Source: Acidobacteriota bacterium (GTDB taxonomy: Bacteria; Acidobacteriota; Terriglobia; Bryobacterales; Bryobacteraceae). From it: a stretch of DNA of 64,000 nt. A program made the position numbers and the translations under genes. The notes under the pieces are model-generated. The model was given only the letters and a program-made list of their open reading frames with translations. It made no database searches and had not been told where the DNA came from. The stretch is from positions 186,001 to 250,000 of the forward strand of contig JAFKEE010000019.1 of NCBI GenBank assembly GCA_017307505.1, given 5' to 3'. This document shows, in pieces, positions 35,323-45,402 of this stretch; positions within the stretch are counted from its first letter, which is position 1, and each line of letters begins with the position of its first letter.

Positions 35323-36987
35323 CTAGCCAAGCCCGGACAACTCCTCGTCCACCATCCGGGCCACCGTCGTCTCCCAACCCGGCCCCGGCGCATAGGTCCG
35401 AACACAAGCCGAACAGAGCGTCGCCAGCTCCGCCCGCCACGGCGCCGAATCCGGCAGTAGAACGAGTCCGCCCGCGCCCACGCAGCCGGCCAGCACCCGC
35501 GCGCCCGGCTCAAAGCATTCCGAGTCCGTCAGCACCAAAACATCACACTGGTCAAACTCGAGACCCCGTTCGAAGAGCCCCTGCTCCGAGAATTCGAACA
35601 GACCCACTGCCTGACGCGGATGCAACAGCAGCGCCCCCGCAACCACTCCGCGGGCCCGCAGCGCAGCGTGAATCTCTCTCGCGACGGTCGCGGCGGACGC
35701 CCCATGCACGGCGGCAATCGGAATCCGGCCATCCGTTCCCTCCGGGTACACCTCGCGGACAATGAGATCGGCCACTGGAATGCCGACGTGCATCGCAAAA
35801 CCCGGCATGGGGTTCACTTCCAGCAGGGCGCCCGCCTGCTCCGGCAACGGCACGGCAATGTCTTCGGCCACCAGATCGATGCCCGCAATATCAAGGCCCA
35901 CGGCTTCAGCGGCCAACACACACAGCCCGGCATTCGCTGGATGAACGTCGCCTGTCACGTCGAGCTTCAGATTCCCGTTGCGCTGGATCAGCGCGCGCTC
36001 ACCCGCAGCCAGGATCGTCTCCGGTGTGAACCCCTGCCGCCCCAATGTGGCCAGCGTAACCTCATCGAATTCCACCGGGTAGAGCGGGCATTCCGGCTCC
36101 ACTCCGCGTGCCGGATCGAGGTTGATCTCATCGACCAGTGCGCGCAGCGAACGCACGCCATCTCCCGTGGCATACAGCGGATCCCCGCGCAGCGCCGCCA
36201 CCACTCGTCCGCCCACCACCAGTACCCGGTGCTCCGCCCCTTGTACGCATCGCTCCACCAGCACCTGCCCGGTCGCCCCTTCCCCTTGCGCGGCTGAGAA
36301 GGCGGCTTCAATCCCGGCCGGATCCGTCAGGTTGAGATACACGCTCCGCCCGTGGTTCGCGCTTTCCGGCTTGATCACCACCGGTCCGCCGAGCTCTGCC
36401 GCCGCCGCCACCGCGTCTGCGGCATCCGACGCCAGCCGACCAGCCGGCACGGGGATTCCGGCACTCCTCAGCATCTCTTTGGCCAGGGGCTTGTCCCAGC
36501 CGATCATCTCGGCAATCGCGGAAGTCCGGTCGCTGCGCGCCCCCCACAGTCTTCGCTGGCGGATACCGTAACCGAGAATCAGCAGGCTGCCGCGTCCCAT
36601 GCGCCTCACAGGGATGGAGCGGCGTCGGGCGGCTTCGGCTAACGCCCGCGTATTGGGACCCAGAACAATCTCGTCCGCCCACTCGCGCAACGGCCCCACT
36701 TTGTCAGCGGGAACCGGACACCCTTCGAGCGCGGCCGAGAAACACCGGCGGGCGACCTCTTCGTCCTCCAACTCCACCACAGCCAGCTGCGTGCCTGGTT
36801 CGCTTCCCTCTGCGCACGATGCTCGCGAGACATGCGCTCCGCACTCCACCTGCAATCGGAGCGTCTCCTGGGCGAGAGCCCCTGCCTCCTCCGGAGTGCC
36901 TCGCACTGCGGCCGCCAGCACCGGCTCGCGCGACCAGAGACTCGGTCCCCGGAAGCACCGGACCCAGAGGACCTGAGCCATGCTCAT
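35323..36987 (-). CDS. Cyanophycin-synthetase-like protein with degenerate Mur-ligase domain
   Basis: 554 aa, against about 870 for the adjacent full-length homologue. The N-terminal domain (1-165) and the ATP-grasp domain (166-415) are complete: Lys206 in VVIKPESANHGRSV, LVERCVQGAEHRVLVV, and the metal ligands in LLEVNPMPGFAMH. The Mur-ligase half starts with GRIPIAAV but the P-loop GTNGKTT is GASAATV (429-435), without the lysine. The rest is shortened to about 120 residues, of which LFEFSEQGLFERGLEFDQCDVLVLTDS still aligns with the corresponding strand of CphA. It should use ATP at the ATP-grasp site only. Its ATG overlaps the stop of the full-length cphA gene (ATGA), so the two are cotranslated. 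Confidence 0.92.
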   Translation of the reverse strand: MSMAQVLWVRCFRGPSLWSREPVLAAAVRGTPEEAGALAQETLRLQVECGAHVSRASCAEGSEPGTQLAVVELEDEEVARRCFSAALEGCPVPADKVGPLREWADEIVLGPNTRALAEAARRRSIPVRRMGRGSLLILGYGIRQRRLWGARSDRTSAIAEMIGWDKPLAKEMLRSAGIPVPAGRLASDAADAVAAAAELGGPVVIKPESANHGRSVYLNLTDPAGIEAAFSAAQGEGATGQVLVERCVQGAEHRVLVVGGRVVAALRGDPLYATGDGVRSLRALVDEINLDPARGVEPECPLYPVEFDEVTLATLGRQGFTPETILAAGERALIQRNGNLKLDVTGDVHPANAGLCVLAAEAVGLDIAGIDLVAEDIAVPLPEQAGALLEVNPMPGFAMHVGIPVADLIVREVYPEGTDGRIPIAAVHGASAATVAREIHAALRARGVVAGALLLHPRQAVGLFEFSEQGLFERGLEFDQCDVLVLTDSECFEPGARVLAGCVGAGGLVLLPDSAPWRAELATLCSACVRTYAPGPGWETTVARMVDEELSGLG

Positions 36988-39596
36988 CTCGCTTCCCGTT
37001 CGCCTACCCGTTCCGGAACCTGGCTCAGGTAAGTGCGCACCAGGGCAATCGCTTCGTCAATGTCGTCGGGCTGCATCACCAGCAGATCGCCGGCCTCGAC
37101 GCGATCCAGCGCGGCCCTCAAGGACTCGGCGGGATTTGGCACGTCCACGATCTCACGGGTTCGCGCTCCGCGCTCGACACCCTGCCGGATCAGCGCCGGA
37201 ATCTCACCCGGGGCGCGGTCTCGGATCGTGTACGGGTCATAAAGGAAGACCGTATCGAACGCATCGCCCAGCAGTTCGCCGACGTGAATGAGATCGGAAT
37301 CCCGCCGGTCGCCGGCCATGGAGTAAACGGCCAATCGGCGGCGATGGGGGAACGCCTCCAGGGCTGCAGTCATCGCGCGCAGGGCCGCGGCGTTGTGGCC
37401 GTAGTCCAGGATCACCGTTCCGCCGCGAATGGAGAACACATTCATGCGGCCCGGAACTTCGTCGATCCCGGTATGGAACGACCTCGCCCGCTCCACCAGC
37501 AGGGGCTTCGGAACGCCCAGCGCCCAGGCCCCGGCCAGTGCGGCCAGCGCGTTCTCGGCTTCAAACTCCACTCTGCCCTGGAAGGTGATCGGAACCTGCT
37601 CCAGGTCCAGCAGGACTTCTTCGGCAGCGCCCTCCGCCAGCACGATCGCCCTGCCTCGCACGAATACGGCCGCGCCCCCGGCCTCCCGGTGCCGCACGAG
37701 GATTGGATTGTGCCCATCCAGGGCGAAATAGACGATGCGGCCCGGACAGTCCGCCGCCATGGCTGCGACCAGCGGATCGGCCGCGTTGAGAACAGCGGCG
37801 CCATCCGGCAACACGGCGCGAACCACCGTGGCCTTCACATGGGCAAGGTCCTCGGCCGTCTCCACGCCACTCTGGCCGAGATGATCGCCATCGGCAATAT
37901 TCGTCACCACGGCCACCCGGCAGCGGTCAAATCCGAGCCCCGCCCGGAGAATCCCGCCGCGCGCGGTTTCGAACACGGCCACGTCCACTTTGGGGTTCAT
38001 CAGGACCAGCCCCGCGCTGATCGGGCCGCTGCAATCGTCCGACGAGATCCGCCGGCCGTCCAGGAAAATGCCGTCTGTACAGGTCATCCCGACGAAGTGA
38101 TCTTTCCCTTTCGCCAGATGCGCCAGGAAACGCGTTACCGTCGTTTTGCCGTTCGTGCCCGTCACGGCGGCGATGGGGATTCGTCCGTTTTCGCCGTTTG
38201 GGAACAGCATCTCCACAATGGCGCCGCCCACATCGCGCGGCGTTCCTTCAGAGGGAGACAGGTGCATCCGAAGTCCGGGCGCGGCATTCACCTCGACGAT
38301 GACGCCGCTCTGCTGCTCGAGAGGCAGCGAAATATCGCCGGTGATCACGTCGATGCCCGCGACATCCAGGCCCACGACGGCGGCCGCCGCCACCGCGTGC
38401 TCGGCGATCTCCGGACACACGCTCTCAGTCACATCCGTCGCAGTGCCGCCCGTGCTCAGGTTTGCATTGCGGCGGATCAGAACCCGTTTTCCGCTCACCG
38501 GCACAGAGTCCGGCGTGTAGCCCTGCTCGCCCAATACCTGCAGGGCGATTTCATCCAGCACCAGTTTGCTGAGCACGGTGGCGTGGGCATCGCCGCGCCG
38601 GGGATCCCGGTTTTTTTCGTCCACCAATGCCCGCACGCTGCTGCGCCCGTCGCCGGTGACATGCGCCGGCTCGCGGCGGGACGCCGCCACCACCTTGCCG
38701 TCCACTACCAGCAGCCGGTAATCCTGGCCCGGCGCGAACTTCTCCACAATGACGTCTTCGCCCTCTTTGCGGGCAGCCTCAAACGCGGCCTTCACCTGCT
38801 CGCAAGTGGATAGATCCGCCGCTACGCCGCGCCCCTGGTTCCCATAGCGCGGTTTCACCACCACCGGCAGCCCGACATACTCTACCGCGGTGTACCAGGC
38901 GTCTTCCGCGTCCGTCACCGTGAACCCTCGCGGAACCGGTACGCCCACTGCCTGCAGCAAGGTCCTCGTTACTTCTTTGTCCTGGGCGATGCCTTCCGCC
39001 GTAGCCAGCGTACGGTCCGTTTCCGCAGCCCGGATGCGATGCTGCGCCCTGCCATGGCCGAGCTGCACCAGCGAACCTTCGTCCAACCGGATCGTCGGAA
39101 TGTTCCGCGCGCGCGCCGCCTGCACGATACTGTTCGTACTCGGCCCCAGCATCTGGCGCCCGGCCGTGGCGCGCAACCGTTCGACGGTGCCCGGCGGGTC
39201 AATCGCCTGCCCGGCCGCGGCCGCCTGCACCATCTCGCACGCGGCATCCAGGCACTCCCGCGCAAGCTGTTCCTCGACATATTCGAAAGCAGCCAGGAAC
39301 ACGCCCGGTTGCCTGGTCTCGACAACTTTGGAAAACGACGCAGGGGCGCCCGCCAGCTTCTGTAGCTCGAGCACGATGTGCGCCAGGTCCCGCACCAGTT
39401 CCGCGTGGCCCCCCGATTTCGTGCCGTTCGGGGAAGGCTTCAGGTCTGGATTCCAGCTTCCGATGTGCCGGCGCAACCAGGCCGAAGCGGCAGTCAGGCT
39501 ATCATCCGATCCCCCGAGGTCTAGCGTCGACTCGATCACCGGGCAGAGCCCCCAGACGTTGGGGCCGGGAACTGTTTTTGTCTTGAGCAGCCGCAT
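36984..39596 (-). CDS. cphA: Cyanophycin synthetase
   Basis: 870 aa from ATG 39596, the usual CphA length; the frame continues upstream to 39785 but enters the divergent gene's leader. Domains in order: N-terminal domain (1-160), ATP-grasp (about 200-450, VVVKPRYGNQGRGV and VIVEVNAAPGLRMHLSP) and Mur-ligase domain (about 470-870) with intact P-loop TGTNGKTT (Lys484), FETARGGILRAGLGFD, the HN box DYGHNAAALRAM and the C-terminal domain. CphA polymerises aspartate and arginine into multi-L-arginyl-poly-L-aspartate, adding Asp with the ATP-grasp site and Arg with the Mur-like site (established). It is the first gene of a leftward pair with the degenerate paralogue and lies back to back with the ABC transporter. 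No cyanophycinase gene is in the window. Confidence 0.94.
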   Translation of the reverse strand: MRLLKTKTVPGPNVWGLCPVIESTLDLGGSDDSLTAASAWLRRHIGSWNPDLKPSPNGTKSGGHAELVRDLAHIVLELQKLAGAPASFSKVVETRQPGVFLAAFEYVEEQLARECLDAACEMVQAAAAGQAIDPPGTVERLRATAGRQMLGPSTNSIVQAARARNIPTIRLDEGSLVQLGHGRAQHRIRAAETDRTLATAEGIAQDKEVTRTLLQAVGVPVPRGFTVTDAEDAWYTAVEYVGLPVVVKPRYGNQGRGVAADLSTCEQVKAAFEAARKEGEDVIVEKFAPGQDYRLLVVDGKVVAASRREPAHVTGDGRSSVRALVDEKNRDPRRGDAHATVLSKLVLDEIALQVLGEQGYTPDSVPVSGKRVLIRRNANLSTGGTATDVTESVCPEIAEHAVAAAAVVGLDVAGIDVITGDISLPLEQQSGVIVEVNAAPGLRMHLSPSEGTPRDVGGAIVEMLFPNGENGRIPIAAVTGTNGKTTVTRFLAHLAKGKDHFVGMTCTDGIFLDGRRISSDDCSGPISAGLVLMNPKVDVAVFETARGGILRAGLGFDRCRVAVVTNIADGDHLGQSGVETAEDLAHVKATVVRAVLPDGAAVLNAADPLVAAMAADCPGRIVYFALDGHNPILVRHREAGGAAVFVRGRAIVLAEGAAEEVLLDLEQVPITFQGRVEFEAENALAALAGAWALGVPKPLLVERARSFHTGIDEVPGRMNVFSIRGGTVILDYGHNAAALRAMTAALEAFPHRRRLAVYSMAGDRRDSDLIHVGELLGDAFDTVFLYDPYTIRDRAPGEIPALIRQGVERGARTREIVDVPNPAESLRAALDRVEAGDLLVMQPDDIDEAIALVRTYLSQVPERVGEREAR

Positions 39597-39637
39597 GCGA
39601 ACTGTTCCCAGCCGCCCGGGCGTAGCGGGTTGGGGCT

Positions 39638-39667
39638 TTGACCTGTGGGTTACGATCAGATTGTAAC
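39638..39667 (+). promoter_or_regulatory. Candidate promoter of the ABC transporter operon
   Basis: TTGACC (39638-39643), 18-bp spacer and TGTAAC (39662-39667) in the 107-bp divergent region between cphA and the transporter gene. The match to consensus is only moderate. Confidence 0.35.
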
Positions 39668-39703
39668 TTTCTTGACTATCCGAATCATAGGCGGAATTGC
39701 CTG

Positions 39704-41989
39704 ATGCCGGCGCTTGACGATAACGCGGATATCCCGCGTTGGGTCGCTTTGTTCCTGCAAGGGCGGCTCCAAAACGGGGAAACACCGCTCGCTGCGTTCG
39801 AACCGGATCTCGACTCGCAGATGCGGTACGCCGCCGGCCTCGTCGTCCTTACTGATCGAAAGATACTGAGCTTTGAGTGGCCGCCCGGCTCCCGCCGCGG
39901 GCCGGACGGAGTCATGGCGGAGGCCACCGCACGCTCGTGGCCGCTCGCGCCGGGAATGGACATTCACGTCCATGAAGAGCGCGGCCTCGGCGTCCTCGAC
40001 CTTCGCGACGGCACAGGCACCATTTCGCGCTGGCGATTTACCAACGCGCGCGCCGCGGGCGCGCATCGCCTGGCCGAATGGCGAACGGCCATGCTCAACG
40101 GTTCCGTGCCGGCCCGCATCACCCCCCACCCCGATGCCGTGGCGGATTGCGAATACTGCGGGTTTCCTGTCGGCCCCGGCGCTGCCGCCTGCGGCGAATG
40201 CGGCACGCCGGTCAGCAAACCGCCCCTCCAGTCGCTGCTGCGGCTGCTTCCTCTGGCGCGGCGCTATTGGAGCCTGTCGCTGCTGGGCTTTGTTCTCACT
40301 CTGGCGGGCACCGCCAGCGGACTGGTGCCGCCGTATCTCACCATGCCGCTGCTGGATGGCGTCCTCGTTCCCTACCAGAGCGGCCAGCAGCCGGACACAG
40401 CCATGGTGAAGTGGTATCTTCTCGGCCTGGCCGGTGCTTCGGTTCTCTCCTGGGCCATCACCTGGGCGCAGATGTATGTGATTTCTTCGGTGAGTGAGCG
40501 CGTCGCCGCGGATCTCCGCCTGATGACTTACTCCCACCTCCAGAAGCTCTCCCTCGAGTACTTCGGGCGCAGGCGGACCGGCGATCTCATCTCGCGCGTT
40601 GGCAGCGACACGGACCGCATCTGCTACTTCCTCTCGGTGCACGCCCTCGATTTCGGCACCAATCTGGTGATGCTGTTGCTCACAGCCATCATTCTGTTCA
40701 GCATCGACGCCGGAATGGCCCTGGTCACTCTTCTGCCCATGCCGTTCATCGCCTTTGCCGTGTTCCGCGTGCAAGGCCGCCTGGGCCGCGGCTTTTCAGT
40801 CGGCAACCGCGCCTGGGCCGAGCTCACCAGCATCCTGGCCGACACAATTCCCGGAATCCGCGTGGTGAAAGCCTTCGCCCAGGAGGAACGCGAAATCCAA
40901 CGCATGCAGCACGCGAATCAGCGTGTCCTGCGCACCAACAACCGCGTGAACCGGATTTGGGCCTACTTCAATGCTGTTGTGGTGTTGCTGACAGAACTGG
41001 GCGTGGTCATCGTCTGGGTCGCCGGCGTCTATCGCGTGTTTCACCATTCCGTCACCGTGGGCGTGCTCGCCGCGTTCGTCGCCTACATCACCCGCTTCTA
41101 CACGCAGCTTGATTCAATGAGCCGCATGGCCTCGGCCACGGAACGCGCCGCCGCCAGCGCGCGCCGCGTGTTTGCGATTCTCGACCGGAAACCGAAGATC
41201 GCCGATTCGCCCGACTCCCTGCCGCCCGGGCGCCTGCAGGGCGCCATCGAGTTGCGGAGCGTCAGCTTCCGTTACGGGTCGAGGCCGGTTCTGCGCAACA
41301 TCGATCTCGCCATCGCGCCCGGAGAGATGATCGGACTGGTGGGCCGCAGCGGGGCGGGCAAAACCACCATCATCAACCTCCTCTGCCGCTTCTACGATGT
41401 CACCGACGGCGCCATTCTCGTCGATGGCGTCGACCTGCGGCGCTATCGCCTCAACGAGTATCGCCACAACGTGGGGCTCGTTCTGCAGGAGCCATTCCTC
41501 TTCTACGGCACCGTAGCGGAAAACATCGCTTACGGCCGTCCCGGCGCCGCCCCGGGCGAGATTATTGAAGCCGCGAAAGCAGCTCACGCGCACGAATTCA
41601 TCCTCCGCCTCCCCAACGGTTACGATTCGCTGGTGGGCGAACGCGGCCAGTTCCTCTCCGGAGGCGAACGCCAGCGCCTCAGCATCGCGCGCGCCCTGCT
41701 CATCGATCCTCGGATTCTCATCCTCGATGAAGCCACATCCTCGGTCGACTCCGAAACCGAACGCGAGATTCAGCTCGCCCTTGAGAACCTCACCCGCGAA
41801 CGCACCACCATCGCCATCGCCCACCGCCTCAGCACCCTCAAGAAGGCAGACCGCCTGGTCGTGCTGGAGCGCGGCGCCATCGTCGAAATCGGTCCCCACG
41901 CGGAGTTGCTGGCAAAGGGCGGCACCTACTCGCGATTCTACAAATCGCAATTGGACGGCCTGCAGTCCGCTCCGGAGGAAGAAGCATGA
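39704..41989 (+). CDS. Cyanophycin-locus ABC exporter with N-terminal PH-like and zinc-ribbon domains
   Basis: 761 aa from ATG 39704; an open extension to 39638 has no start signal. Residues about 10-135 form a PH-like domain (LVVLTDRKILSFEW, GVLDLRDGTGTISRWRF), followed by a zinc ribbon CEYC...CGEC (about 149-166). A six-helix type-1 exporter membrane domain spans about 190-480 and a nucleotide-binding domain about 510-750, with Walker A GRSGAGKTT (about 547-555), signature LSGGERQRL, Walker B ILILDEATS and the His switch AHRLST. To my knowledge ABC transporters of this build are found beside cphA and DUF1854 genes in some proteobacteria. It overlaps the DUF1854 gene by ATGA. Substrate unknown. 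Confidence 0.92.
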   Translation: MPALDDNADIPRWVALFLQGRLQNGETPLAAFEPDLDSQMRYAAGLVVLTDRKILSFEWPPGSRRGPDGVMAEATARSWPLAPGMDIHVHEERGLGVLDLRDGTGTISRWRFTNARAAGAHRLAEWRTAMLNGSVPARITPHPDAVADCEYCGFPVGPGAAACGECGTPVSKPPLQSLLRLLPLARRYWSLSLLGFVLTLAGTASGLVPPYLTMPLLDGVLVPYQSGQQPDTAMVKWYLLGLAGASVLSWAITWAQMYVISSVSERVAADLRLMTYSHLQKLSLEYFGRRRTGDLISRVGSDTDRICYFLSVHALDFGTNLVMLLLTAIILFSIDAGMALVTLLPMPFIAFAVFRVQGRLGRGFSVGNRAWAELTSILADTIPGIRVVKAFAQEEREIQRMQHANQRVLRTNNRVNRIWAYFNAVVVLLTELGVVIVWVAGVYRVFHHSVTVGVLAAFVAYITRFYTQLDSMSRMASATERAAASARRVFAILDRKPKIADSPDSLPPGRLQGAIELRSVSFRYGSRPVLRNIDLAIAPGEMIGLVGRSGAGKTTIINLLCRFYDVTDGAILVDGVDLRRYRLNEYRHNVGLVLQEPFLFYGTVAENIAYGRPGAAPGEIIEAAKAAHAHEFILRLPNGYDSLVGERGQFLSGGERQRLSIARALLIDPRILILDEATSSVDSETEREIQLALENLTRERTTIAIAHRLSTLKKADRLVVLERGAIVEIGPHAELLAKGGTYSRFYKSQLDGLQSAPEEEA

Positions 41990-42447
41990 GCTTTCGTCTC
42001 GAACGCGATACCTTCGGCCGCCTGGTTCTCATCGATGCGGCGGGCGTCCGGCATGTAGACGTCTCGCCGGTGCAGGCATTCCCTCTCTCCGCACCCGGCC
42101 GCCACATTTCGATCCTCGACACCGCCGGCCACGAGGTCCTGTCGCTCGATTCGCTCGCCGGCCTCGATCCGCACGTCCAGGCGGTGCTGGAAGCCGAGCT
42201 CGCCGAGCGCATGTTCGTTCCCGAAATCCTGAAAATTGTGAATTCCCCCTCGGAAATGGAGCCATCCACCTGGACGGTGGAAACCGATCGTGGCCTCGTG
42301 ACGTTCACTGTGGAGGGCGAAGACTCGATCCACCTGCGGGATCGTGGCCGCGTATCGATCGTGGATTCACATGGCATCCGCTACGAGATTCCGGATGCGC
42401 GCAAGCTGGACGCGCACAGCCGCCGGATCCTGGAGCCGTACCTCTAA
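41986..42447 (+). CDS. DUF1854 protein of cyanophycin loci
   Basis: 153 aa with no signal or membrane helix. The family pattern is visible: a start with FRLERDTFGRLVLIDAAG, VRHVDVSPVQAFPLSAPGRHISILD, a central LAERMFVPEILKIVN and a second beta-rich half ending DSHGIRYEIPDARKLDAHSRRILEPYL. DUF1854 has no established biochemical function. Its start overlaps the stop of the ABC transporter (ATGA), which suggests a stoichiometric partner of the transporter. Its stop lies only 6 bp from the stop of the convergent Mur-ligase-like gene. Confidence 0.9.
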   Translation: MSFRLERDTFGRLVLIDAAGVRHVDVSPVQAFPLSAPGRHISILDTAGHEVLSLDSLAGLDPHVQAVLEAELAERMFVPEILKIVNSPSEMEPSTWTVETDRGLVTFTVEGEDSIHLRDRGRVSIVDSHGIRYEIPDARKLDAHSRRILEPYL

Positions 42448-42453
42448 ATAGAA

Positions 42454-44685
42454 CTACGCCAGCCACTGCTTCCGCAGAAACCCCGCGGTGGGATCGGCCA
42501 TGTGCGCCTGCGCAAACAGCAGGTGGCCGGCCTCGATGGTCTTGAGGGCGTAGTCCAGGGCGTTCAGCCCGCCCTGCACTTCCTCGATCCGGCGGGCCCG
42601 CCCGCCCGAGGCCATGCCGCGCCGCAGCAGGGCGATCACCTCTCCCGCGCTGCGGTCGTACAGATCGTCGTCCTCATAAAGGATCACGCGGTCGAACGCC
42701 GAGCCCAGCAGTTCGCCCATGCGGACGATGTCCTCGTCCCTGCGGTCGCCCGCCGACGAGAAAACCGCGGTCCTGTGCGTCTGTGCGAACTGATCGAGGC
42801 TGCGAATCGCCGCACTCAAGGCGTCCGGATTGTGCCCGAAATCCATCACCACGGTGGTTCCCCGGATCTCCAGCACGTTGTAGCGCGCGGGGTTGTGCTC
42901 CAGGTCGGGCGTGAAGTCCTCGGCCTGCCGCTCAATCGACTCCGCCGGGATACCCAGCGCATAAGCCGCGCCCACCGCGGCGAGCAGGTTTTCGATCTGG
43001 AAACTCACACGGCCGCCGAACGTCAGCGGCACGCGCTCCACCCGCAGTATGGGCCGCTCCTGCGCGCCCTCGGCCACCACGGCAAATCCGTCGCGCACGA
43101 AAACCACCGCGCCGCCCTCGGACCGGTGCTGGACGAGGACCGGATGCGCGGGGTCGAGGGCGAAGTACAGAACCCGGCCCCGGCACTGGCTCGCCATCCC
43201 GGCCACAATCGGATCATTGGCGTTCAGCACGGCCGTACCGGCCGGACTCACGGCGCGGATGATTGTCGCCTTCAGCTTCGCCAGATCCTCCACACTCTCG
43301 ATTTCGCCGATGCCCAGGTGATCGCCGCTGCCGATGTTGGTGATCACCGCCACCTGGCACGCGTCGAACGCCAGGCCGGCCCGCAGGATCCCGCCTCGTG
43401 CGGTCTCGAACACGGCCATTTCGGCGCGAGGATCCAGAAGGACTCTCATCGCGCTCGACGGCCCGCTGCAATCGCCGCGCGCCACCCGCCGTCCGCCCAG
43501 ATAAATACCGTCCGTACAGGTCATCCCCACGCACCGTCCGGTAGCCTGCAGAATGTGCGCCAAAAGCCGCGCCACGCTGGTCTTGCCGTTGGCGCCGGTG
43601 ATCGCCACGATCGGAATGCGCCCGTCCTCTGCAGGCGGGAAAAGCATCTCGAGGATGGCCTGCGCCGCCGGATTCGGCGTTGCCTGGTCCGCACCGAGCG
43701 GAGCGAGGTCCGCCCCGGGCTGCAATTTCACAATCGCAGTGTGCTGGCCCTGCAGCGCCGAGCCAATCTGTTCGGCGCGGATGTCGATTGTGGCGATGTC
43801 CCAGGCCAGGGCCGCCGCCACCTCGCCAGCCGCCGCCGCCAGGGCCGGATGGACTTCGCCCGTCACATCGCGCCGCCCGCCATCCAGAACAACGGCCAGG
43901 CGCCCGCCCACCGTAACAAACCGGTATTCGGCGCCCCGGGCTTCGGCTTCGTCCACCGCGGCCAGTTCCAGCGGCACGCCGGCCGCCAGCAGTTGTCGTT
44001 CGAGCAGGTCCCGGTCCTCCGCCACCGAGGCCGCAATGGCGCCCAGGCGGTCCGTCTGCGTCCCCGCGATCCGGCGCTGCCGCGCTCCATAGCCGAGTTG
44101 TACGATCTGCCCATCGCCGGGCCGCAGGGCGGGGATGCTCCGCTGCGCCGCGGCCTCGACCAGGACGCGCGTGTCAGGCGCCAGCAGGTGCCGCGCCGCC
44201 ACATCGCGAAGTTGGCTCACCGTTCCAGGCACGTCAAAAGGAAGATCCAGCGCGGCAGCGAGAAACAACTCGCGCGCCGCCACGCAGCACGCCCGGGCGA
44301 GCGTCTCGTCTTTGTATTTGAAAACGACCCGGTAGACCCGGTCCTGGCTCGTATGGCGTGCCCGGCCATACCAGATCTCCGCCCCGGCCAATCCGTGCAG
44401 CTCGATCACGATGTGCTCGAGAATATGAGCCGGATAGGTGCCGCGCTCCAGGCGGGTGAGGAATCCGCCCCTCACCCCGATGTTGCACCGGTGTTCGATC
44501 AGGCCCGGAAGCCACTGCATCAACCGCTGATTGAAGCCGGGCAGCAACTCGGAGGAAAGATCATTCCAGCCGCCCAACTGGACCCAGCATTCCATAACGG
44601 GCGCGTTGTTCCACTGGTTCGGCCCGCGGAGGGCGCGCATGTGCAGGATTTCCAACTCTTCGGCAGCCGGCAGCGTATCGGACAT
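42454..44685 (-). CDS. Cyanophycin-synthetase-like Mur ligase lacking the ATP-grasp core
   Basis: 743 aa. The CphA N-terminal domain (1-215) is present and well conserved, with GIPN-like RGPNQW and a helix EHIVIELHGLAG. The ATP-grasp region is cut to about 125 residues (238-364) against about 260 in the full-length neighbour. The KPxxGNQGxG loop and the EVN metal motif are gone, while strands GAEYRFVTVGGRLAVVL and the Mur linker remain. The Mur-ligase domain is intact with P-loop GANGKTS (364-370, Lys368), FETARGGILRAGLAFD and MDFGHNPDALSAA. It should keep the amino-acid ligation of the Mur-like site only. Transcribed alone, convergent to the transporter operon. The start has no clear ribosome binding site. 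Confidence 0.92.
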   Translation of the reverse strand: MSDTLPAAEELEILHMRALRGPNQWNNAPVMECWVQLGGWNDLSSELLPGFNQRLMQWLPGLIEHRCNIGVRGGFLTRLERGTYPAHILEHIVIELHGLAGAEIWYGRARHTSQDRVYRVVFKYKDETLARACCVAARELFLAAALDLPFDVPGTVSQLRDVAARHLLAPDTRVLVEAAAQRSIPALRPGDGQIVQLGYGARQRRIAGTQTDRLGAIAASVAEDRDLLERQLLAAGVPLELAAVDEAEARGAEYRFVTVGGRLAVVLDGGRRDVTGEVHPALAAAAGEVAAALAWDIATIDIRAEQIGSALQGQHTAIVKLQPGADLAPLGADQATPNPAAQAILEMLFPPAEDGRIPIVAITGANGKTSVARLLAHILQATGRCVGMTCTDGIYLGGRRVARGDCSGPSSAMRVLLDPRAEMAVFETARGGILRAGLAFDACQVAVITNIGSGDHLGIGEIESVEDLAKLKATIIRAVSPAGTAVLNANDPIVAGMASQCRGRVLYFALDPAHPVLVQHRSEGGAVVFVRDGFAVVAEGAQERPILRVERVPLTFGGRVSFQIENLLAAVGAAYALGIPAESIERQAEDFTPDLEHNPARYNVLEIRGTTVVMDFGHNPDALSAAIRSLDQFAQTHRTAVFSSAGDRRDEDIVRMGELLGSAFDRVILYEDDDLYDRSAGEVIALLRRGMASGGRARRIEEVQGGLNALDYALKTIEAGHLLFAQAHMADPTAGFLRKQWLA

Positions 44686-44816
44686 TCAGTACGGATTTTA
44701 GCCCATGGCCCCACGACCGCACGAAAACGTCATGCGGAGCAGCTCCGCGTCCACAAGCAGTCAGGCACTCTCCAGAACTGGATCGGCAGGCGTCAGTGGC
44801 CAGCCGGTCAGTCCCC

Positions 44817-45402
44817 AGTTTGTGGGGTGGGCTTCAGCCTGCAGAGGGCTTCAGCCCTCCTCTTCGAACCGGATCAACCCAGCAGCCCAACCGCAATCAA
44901 GCCCCACCAGTCCCCTGGGAGCACCGGACCCCGGCATACTCCAGCCTGAAAGTTTGAGCCTGTAGAACAGTCTGTAGCTTAGGAGCAAGCTTCAGTTTGT
45001 GGGGCAGGCTTCAGCCTGCAGAGGGCTTCAGCCCTCCTCTTCGAATCGGATCAACCCAGCAGCACAACCGCAATCAAGCCTCACCAGTCTCCTGGGAGCA
45101 CCGGACCCCGGCACACTCCAGCCTGAGATCTTCAGTTTGGAGAGCAGTCTGCAGCTTAGGAGCAAGCTTCAGTTTGTGGGGCAGGCTTCAGCCTGCAGAG
45201 GGCTTCAGCCCTCCTCCTCGAATCGGATCAACCCAGCAGCACAACCGCAATCAAGCCTCACCAGTCCCCTGGGAGCACCGGACTCCGGCACACTCCAGCC
45301 TGGGATCCTCAGTTTGGAGAGCAGTCTGCAGCTTAGGAGCACCCTTCAGTTTGTGGGGTGGGCTTCAGCCTGCAGAGGGCTTCAGCCCTCCTCTTCGAAC
45401 CG
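44817..45402 (+). repeat. 177-bp tandem repeat with twin hairpins (3 full units and 1 partial)
   Basis: Units begin at 44817, 44994, 45171 and 45348, each 177 bp apart, the last one cut after about 55 bp. Each unit starts AGTTTGTGGGG followed by two adjacent inverted repeats: GCAGGCT-TC-AGCCTGC (perfect in units 2 and 3, one arm changed in 1 and 4) and GAGGGCT-TC-AGCCCTC (perfect in all). Because 177 is divisible by 3, open frames run through the repeats, but they have no start signal and are not considered genes. Confidence 0.9.

Follow-up and report, generated by a model that had tools for sequence, protein, structure and literature searches.

Cyanophycin synthetase 1 (CphA1) carries three active sites: an ATP-grasp site that adds Asp (G site), a Mur-ligase-like site that adds Arg (M site), and a metallopeptidase-like site in the N-terminal domain with the motif Cx19HxxEH (N site), which cuts the polymer into primers (Sharon 2022, PMC9262961). 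The N site is described there as slow and primer-generating. SuCphA1 with an inactivated G site, M site, or both confers primer-independent synthesis on TmCphA1, a primer-dependent enzyme, in trans, an effect due to the N site (PMC9262961). The N motif is present in 83% of the nr70 set of CphA1 sequences, so about one-sixth of them lack the primer-making site (Sharon 2022, PMC9262961). Here, we analyze a group of cphA genes in a 64,000-nucleotide stretch of an Acidobacteriota genome (contig JAFKEE010000019.1, positions 186,001 to 250,000; hereafter the window), which encodes a full-length CphA and two truncated paralogues of 743 and 554 residues. We somewhat favor the reading that, after gene duplication, the paralogues share primer-making, Asp-adding, and Arg-adding, and that the N-bearing partner primes CphA in trans.

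Clusters of two cphA genes with an ATP-binding cassette (ABC) transporter are already known. The Group 1 cphA clusters of Farmer et al. 2023 (PMC10687191) likewise contain two cphA genes and an ABC transporter and no cphB. A composite transposon was suggested for them, and the accessible text of that paper contains no active-site analysis or division of labor. The families of the transporter and of the accompanying DUF1854 protein are named in NCBIfam. In the titles and abstracts searched, a body of literature outside which many subscription papers lie, we found none on N-site complementation between CphA paralogues or on naturally split CphA.

The full-length CphA of the window (36984–39596, minus strand) belongs to the same family and fold as the solved CphA1s (TIGR02068; PDB 7wac, 7lg5, 7txv, 7lgm, 7lgn). 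Its open reading frame encodes 933 residues from a mechanically called GTG start (36984–39785) and 870 residues when read from the Met at 39596, the residue aligned with Met1 of the solved CphA1s. The ATP-grasp (KNQG/R/EN) and Mur-like (KTEDH) sites are both intact in one chain, and the P-loop reads GTNGKTT. Unlike primer-independent CphA1s, which are recognized by the motif Cx19HxxEH, the protein has a degenerate N-domain site (39363–39467, minus strand) and should therefore be primer-dependent. Its two paralogues have each lost other sites. The 743-residue protein (42454–44685, minus strand) retains the endo-cyanophycinase motif of the N site, formed by C67, H87, E90, and H91 (44413–44487), and the Mur-type P-loop GANGKTS at residues 364–370 (43576–43596). 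It has 26 residues (244–270) where TeCphA1 has about 161 (239–400), so that the ATP-grasp domain is shorter by approximately 135 residues at the junction (43846–43977). The AlphaFold2 model of the 743-residue protein (pLDDT 86.4) has TeCphA1 as its best match in the PDB, with a TMq of 0.91 over the whole length, which indicates that the overall frame persists despite the missing segment. Judging from the model, joint oligomers of this protein with CphA are possible.

Denoting the presence or absence of the residues of each site by plus or minus, the window and its congener genome G105 encode a full-length N−G+M+ protein, a 743-residue-type N+G−M+ protein, and a 554-residue-type N−G+M− protein. 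The original prediction, which described the three homologues of 870, 554, and 743 residues with their P-loops and domain losses, was correct at the residue level. It further proposed that the losses of the two truncated proteins mirror each other. The losses are indeed complementary, but the main axis runs between the N site and the G and M sites rather than between G and M, because the 743-residue protein keeps the N-domain endo-cyanophycinase lost by its full-length neighbor. Features beyond that prediction are the metallopeptidase motif of the N domain, the rebuilt Asp pocket described below, a 4-bp gene overlap, and the DUF1854 gene.

The distribution of the N site follows the same pattern in other bacteria. 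In Burkholderiales and relatives a second cphA, encoding CphA′, lies beside cphA. A CphA match was present in 79 of 200 Burkholderiales genomes, 75 of which were analyzed (G683, G689, and G726, with single matches at E 1e-69 to 1e-95, are outside the panel, and G606 was handled as L068). All 64 genomes that encode both proteins have the N site in CphA′ and not in CphA. Each of 67 CphA′ proteins retains the N motif, 63 retain the ATP-grasp residues KNHGREN, and seven retain the M site; the Asp pocket is altered in all 67, a trait by which the set was selected. Seven Burkholderiales genomes have CphA and no recognized CphA′; six of these keep the N site in CphA, and the seventh has its partner truncated at a contig end. 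The N− CphA and its N+G−M+ partner are on different contigs in the Planctomycetota genomes G593, G595, and G596.

Among 108 proteins with an Asp-type G site from 105 genomes, the N site was lost in 78 that have an N-bearing partner and in none without one, and it was kept in 25 without a partner and in four with one; the remaining protein (G845, contig end) is unscored. The focal proteins had at least 600 aligned residues and were subject to a relaxed G test (N/S/H at position 266, G/A at 268, K allowed for R323). The count of 78 includes G605, which has a gene broken across frames and was entered by hand as having an N+ partner, and becomes 77 without it. At the level of genomes, 113 were scored, and 98 of them encode at least two CphA-family proteins with 350 or more aligned residues. 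Exactly one N site was found in 92 of the 98, two in three, and none in three. The 92 include six Burkholderiales genomes with an M-only second protein, and G608 and G613, in which the second protein is without an N site. Many of the genomes are drafts or metagenome-assembled genomes, and they were sampled by named searches, not as all genomes. A scan for DUF1854 yielded 42 loci, distributed over Acidobacteriota, Planctomycetota, and Pseudomonadota, of which 24 show a CphA-family frame in the stretch examined; several of the other 18 are short contigs.

Several observations weigh against in-trans priming. The association rests on approximately five independent changes of each trait, and the independent pairs (three agreeing, none opposing, one tie; sign test p 0.25) are too few for a formal test of the rule. 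Three genomes (G026, G114, and G138) carry two N sites. The multi-copy genomes that score no N site are G605, with the frame-broken gene, G845, with the contig end, and G809, with an odd family. The solved CphA1s of Acinetobacter baylyi and T. morbirosei are without the N motif, as is one of the eight plasmid-encoded CphAs analyzed (of 20 matches), that of a Chryseobacterium plasmid, the other seven being N+. The N-less CphAs of Acinetobacter, T. morbirosei, and the Chryseobacterium plasmid may stand alone without an N+ partner. Plasmid CphAs were kept out of the 108-protein comparison since their host chromosomes are not in the data. In the 743-residue protein, the difference in dN/dS (omega, window versus G105) between the N domain and the G remnant is small by NG86 and nearly nil by YN00 (0.122 versus 0.127). 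Sharon 2022 proposes that leftover strands or other cell molecules serve as primers, and an N site located on the other protomer of SuCphA1 heterodimers is somewhat less effective (PMC9262961).

The 554-residue protein (35323–36987, minus strand) lacks the N site and has a reduced Mur-like domain, in which the former P-loop reads GASAATV (residues 429–435). Its ATP-grasp catalytic motifs are kept, including KPESANHG and EVN, with the lysine, the Asn-His-Gly, Arg309, and the Glu/Asn positions. TeCphA1 holds the incoming Asp through Arg323, Asn394, and Arg458 and through the space that the G-omega loop leaves at Ser396 (PMC9427784). In the 554-residue protein, Arg323 is replaced by Gly, Arg458 by Ala, and the STGG loop is five residues shorter (STGG and the next residue), which removes the Ser396 loop; the remaining loop RNGNLKLDV is encoded at 35956–35982 (minus strand). 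Because the residues contacting the incoming Asp are changed or deleted, the protein probably does not perform the Asp half-reaction and is probably not a simple Asp-adder. With the catalytic positions kept and the Asp pocket altered, it should activate the chain end and join a unit other than free Asp. Our first guess at the acceptor, by likeness to the domain losses of CphA2, is β-Asp-Arg.

The cyanobacterial CphA2 has a single ATP-grasp site and neither an N motif nor a Mur P-loop or lid, according to published descriptions of the enzyme. The 554-residue protein shares these site losses with CphA2, a β-Asp-Arg polymerase (PDB 7ta5, 8fxh, 8fxi): its ATP-grasp site is intact, whereas the N motif and the Mur P-loop and lid are absent. 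It differs in being non-cyanobacterial and closer to CphA1 both in sequence (227 bits to 7lgm versus 126 bits to 8fxh) and in its AlphaFold2 model (pLDDT 85.7; best TMq of 0.82 versus 0.70). The matched ranges of CphA2 (8fxh, 7ta5) to the protein begin only at the Asp-pocket loop. The 554-residue protein resembles CphA′ of Burkholderiales in the altered Asp pocket and the kept ATP-grasp catalytic residues, and the G domains of the two group together. Unlike CphA′, it has lost the N site, which in the window is borne by a CphA paralogue instead. A tree of G domains computed without the Asp-pocket trait columns unites the 554-like proteins with CphA′ (support 97), and a 62-row tree recovers this clade (support 94). 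An 82-row whole-protein tree does not recover it and places the 554-like rows on a long branch of their own. Loci L089, L076, and L072/L074 and short fragments were excluded from some trees.

The congener G105, assembled in two contigs, contains all five genes in identical order, which rules out an assembly artefact or chance, and its CphA proteins are 81–88% identical to those of the window. The trio recurs in three related Acidobacteria (G105, G026, and G114, the last with its 554 type truncated at a contig end), so that the synteny is shared by four genomes, and G138 has two full copies with a 554 type. Within the order, TIGR02068 matched 10 of 257 genomes at 1e-60, and four of them bear the trio. 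The overall omega values between the window and G105 (NG86) are 0.15 for the full-length CphA, 0.15 for the 743-residue protein, and 0.18 for the 554-residue protein. All three genes are under purifying selection, and the retained domains are clearly the most constrained in the full-length CphA (N 0.31, G 0.083, M 0.103) and in the 554-residue protein (N remnant 0.24, G 0.105, M remnant 0.316); the corresponding values for the 743-residue protein are 0.158 for N, 0.21 for the G remnant, and 0.123 for M. The truncated forms thus co-occur in relatives and are not under relaxed selection with omega near 1, two points on which the original prediction had staked its case.

The related genomes display graded states of site loss. 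G138 (L031) encodes two N+G+M+ proteins, G026 (L027) and G114 (L030) pair an N+G+M+ with an N+G−M+ protein, and the window and G105 pair an N−G+M+ with an N+G−M+ protein. These look like successive stages in which duplication was followed by loss of the G site from one copy and then of the N site from the other. In a tree of 62 proteins, built by a quick search with SH-aLRT support only, the acidobacterial 743-type proteins group with a full N+G+M+ copy of G138 (support 94), the sister clade being made up of the other full copies (support 96).

A different partition of sites was found in Chromatiaceae, where 45 of 116 genomes have a match and nine were analyzed further, together with G600 as L051. 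Seven genomes encode an N+G+M− protein with an intact Asp pocket and an N−G−M+ protein. No full CphA was found in these seven genomes, each of which has two matches (four genomes searched at 1e-30, three at 1e-60). By its sequence, the pair is a real mirrored split CphA. In an eighth genome, G919, the G half is without the N site and an N+ CphA′ is also present, so that the N, Asp-type G, and M sites reside on three separate proteins. The unclassed genomes G956, G982, G915, G926, G887, and G951 have matches outside profile positions 154–477; the other genomes outside the analyzed set match within these positions, or close to them, only.

We propose that gene duplication was followed by the dealing out of the three CphA active sites among the paralogues. 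The full-length CphA would perform bulk, primer-dependent polymerization by its ATP-grasp (Asp) and Mur-like (Arg) sites. The 743-residue protein, predicted to be unable to add Asp, would use its N site to cut the polymer to short primers for CphA in trans, and its M site may arginylate bare Asp side chains. The published rescue of TmCphA1 indicates that priming of a CphA in trans is chemically possible. The 554-residue protein, a shortened relative of CphA′, would activate the C-terminal carboxylate of the chain with ATP and then join a unit other than free Asp, most likely β-Asp-Arg, in its rebuilt acceptor pocket, and the ABC transporter may move the product. The sequences themselves show which residues remain at each site, how these are distributed over the sampled genomes, that the genes evolve under purifying selection, and that relatives have intermediate states; the catalytic activities, priming in trans, binding of the paralogues to one another, the acceptor of the 554-residue protein, and the cargo of the transporter are inferred from these. 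We also entertain, as an unlikely extension, that cyanophycin synthesis is a distributed multi-protein assembly line, full in G919 and partial here, with a fourth, non-Asp ligation by a CphA′-type site, and that the cluster makes and exports short end-modified isopeptide oligomers, not only storage polymer.

The main rival to in-trans priming is that the N-bearing partner trims or degrades the polymer rather than making primers, and that the oligomers are either recycled or leave through the ABC transporter. It owes this place to the cyanophycinase searches: at an E value of 0.001 neither the window's genome nor G105 has a TIGR02069 match, and PF03575 has a sub-cut-off match in the former and a borderline one in the latter. 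(PF03575 has no match in G114, G138, or eight Chromatiaceae genomes.) The position of the ABC/DUF1854 pair between the cphA genes and the two-cphA clusters with an ABC transporter and without cphB in Farmer et al. 2023 (PMC10687191) also suit trimming or export. However, TIGR02069 matches occur in 10 of 25 genomes of the set, five of them over the cut-off, and the 10 include G593–G596, whose ABC-locus proteins are N+G−M+, and the trio-bearing G026. As the N site was moreover reported to be slow and primer-generating (PMC9262961), we regard trimming as unlikely. A structural or regulatory role, in which the truncated paralogues join CphA oligomers via their conserved G-core and N domains and tune the chain length, with the remaining active sites mattering little, would be compatible with the superposition of the 743-residue model on whole CphA1, since the oligomer surfaces may survive. 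The selective keeping of catalytic residues in CphA′ (N far ahead of M) and the G part having the lowest omega in the 554-residue protein make this role quite improbable.

The original prediction also allowed that the two truncated proteins each keep one half-reaction and form a split pair, the 554-residue protein adding Asp and the 743-residue protein adding Arg, as a second CphA in parallel. Such an arrangement, with an intact Asp pocket, is our reading for the seven Chromatiaceae genomes. In the window, however, the 554-residue protein has an Asp pocket changed or deleted in the manner of CphA′ (R323G, Ser396 loop deleted, R458A), and the window also encodes a full CphA bearing both sites; we rejected the split pair here on the pocket changes and hold it to be very unlikely. 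That the truncated copies are functionless, decaying duplicates could be argued from the loss of a domain by each copy and from the higher omega of the lost-domain remnants (0.21–0.32, NG86). The low overall omega of the genes, the synteny in four genomes, and the motifs kept across deep divergence led us to reject decaying pseudogenes, which we consider the least credible of these explanations.

If in-trans priming is correct, the primer source for a large group of N-less CphAs would be an N-bearing paralogue in the same genome. In Burkholderiales, the primer-giving partner would usually be encoded next door, which would give CphA′ a role. A single-chain CphA is unable to balance synthesis against cutting by expression (Sharon 2022, PMC9262961), and the apparent natural split enzymes could do so. 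For polymer production, the pattern suggests co-expression of CphA with an N-bearing partner.

Several further CphA-like proteins were observed. An M-only, Mur-ligase-like protein accompanies an N+G+M+ CphA at L155–L161 (G872, G838, G714, G800, G759, G786) and at L088 (3417–3621), and a gene annotated as Mur ligase family directly follows cphA on a plasmid of Ruegeria sp. THAF33. The CphA′ gene of Thermomonas sp. S9 (L059) is frame-broken in the assembly and open in T. haemolytica (L056), which may reflect a sequencing error or recent decay. The Planctomycetota loci L072 (G595) and L074 (G596) encode a third CphA-like protein, in which RDMA replaces GNHG in the ATP-grasp loop and EVN and Arg309 are kept. 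CphA-like proteins whose ATP-grasp loop contains KD or KG are encoded at L169 (G809), L207 (G934), L208 (G878), L209 (G910), and L210 (G608). No N motif was found in these five proteins, most of which have 720–870 aligned residues, and they are possibly another family of polymer synthetases.

The source genome comprises 9.39 Mb in 75 contigs. In the window, the genes of the 554-residue protein and full-length CphA are on the minus strand, the start of the former overlapping the stop of the latter by 4 bp. The ABC exporter (39704–41989, open frame from 39638) and the DUF1854 protein (41986–42447) are encoded divergently on the plus strand, and the gene of the 743-residue protein is convergent to them on the minus strand. 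No sigma-70 or terminator patterns were found within the divergent region 39400–39900. Only the full-length CphA passes the curated TIGR02068 cut-off of 850 bits, with a whole-protein score of 950; the 743-residue (675) and 554-residue (330) proteins are below it. The exporter matches the CphA-associated family NF052233 (1055 bits, cut-off 880), and the DUF1854 protein matches the CphA-associated family NF052234 (174 bits, cut-off 150) and PF08909. The pair also occurs in Acidobacteriota without a TIGR02068 match at 1e-30, at L019/L033 (G190), L022/L034 (G072), and L023/L032 (G161), so the cargo of the transporter need not be cyanophycin. Close homologues of the transporter were found neither in IMG/VR viral contigs nor, at 1e-150, in plasmids. 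The N-terminal extension of the exporter contains a CxxC...CxxC ribbon-like element (40148–40201). Just upstream of the gene of the 743-residue protein, a 177-bp tandem repeat spans 44816–45399 in 3.3 copies with a 93% match.

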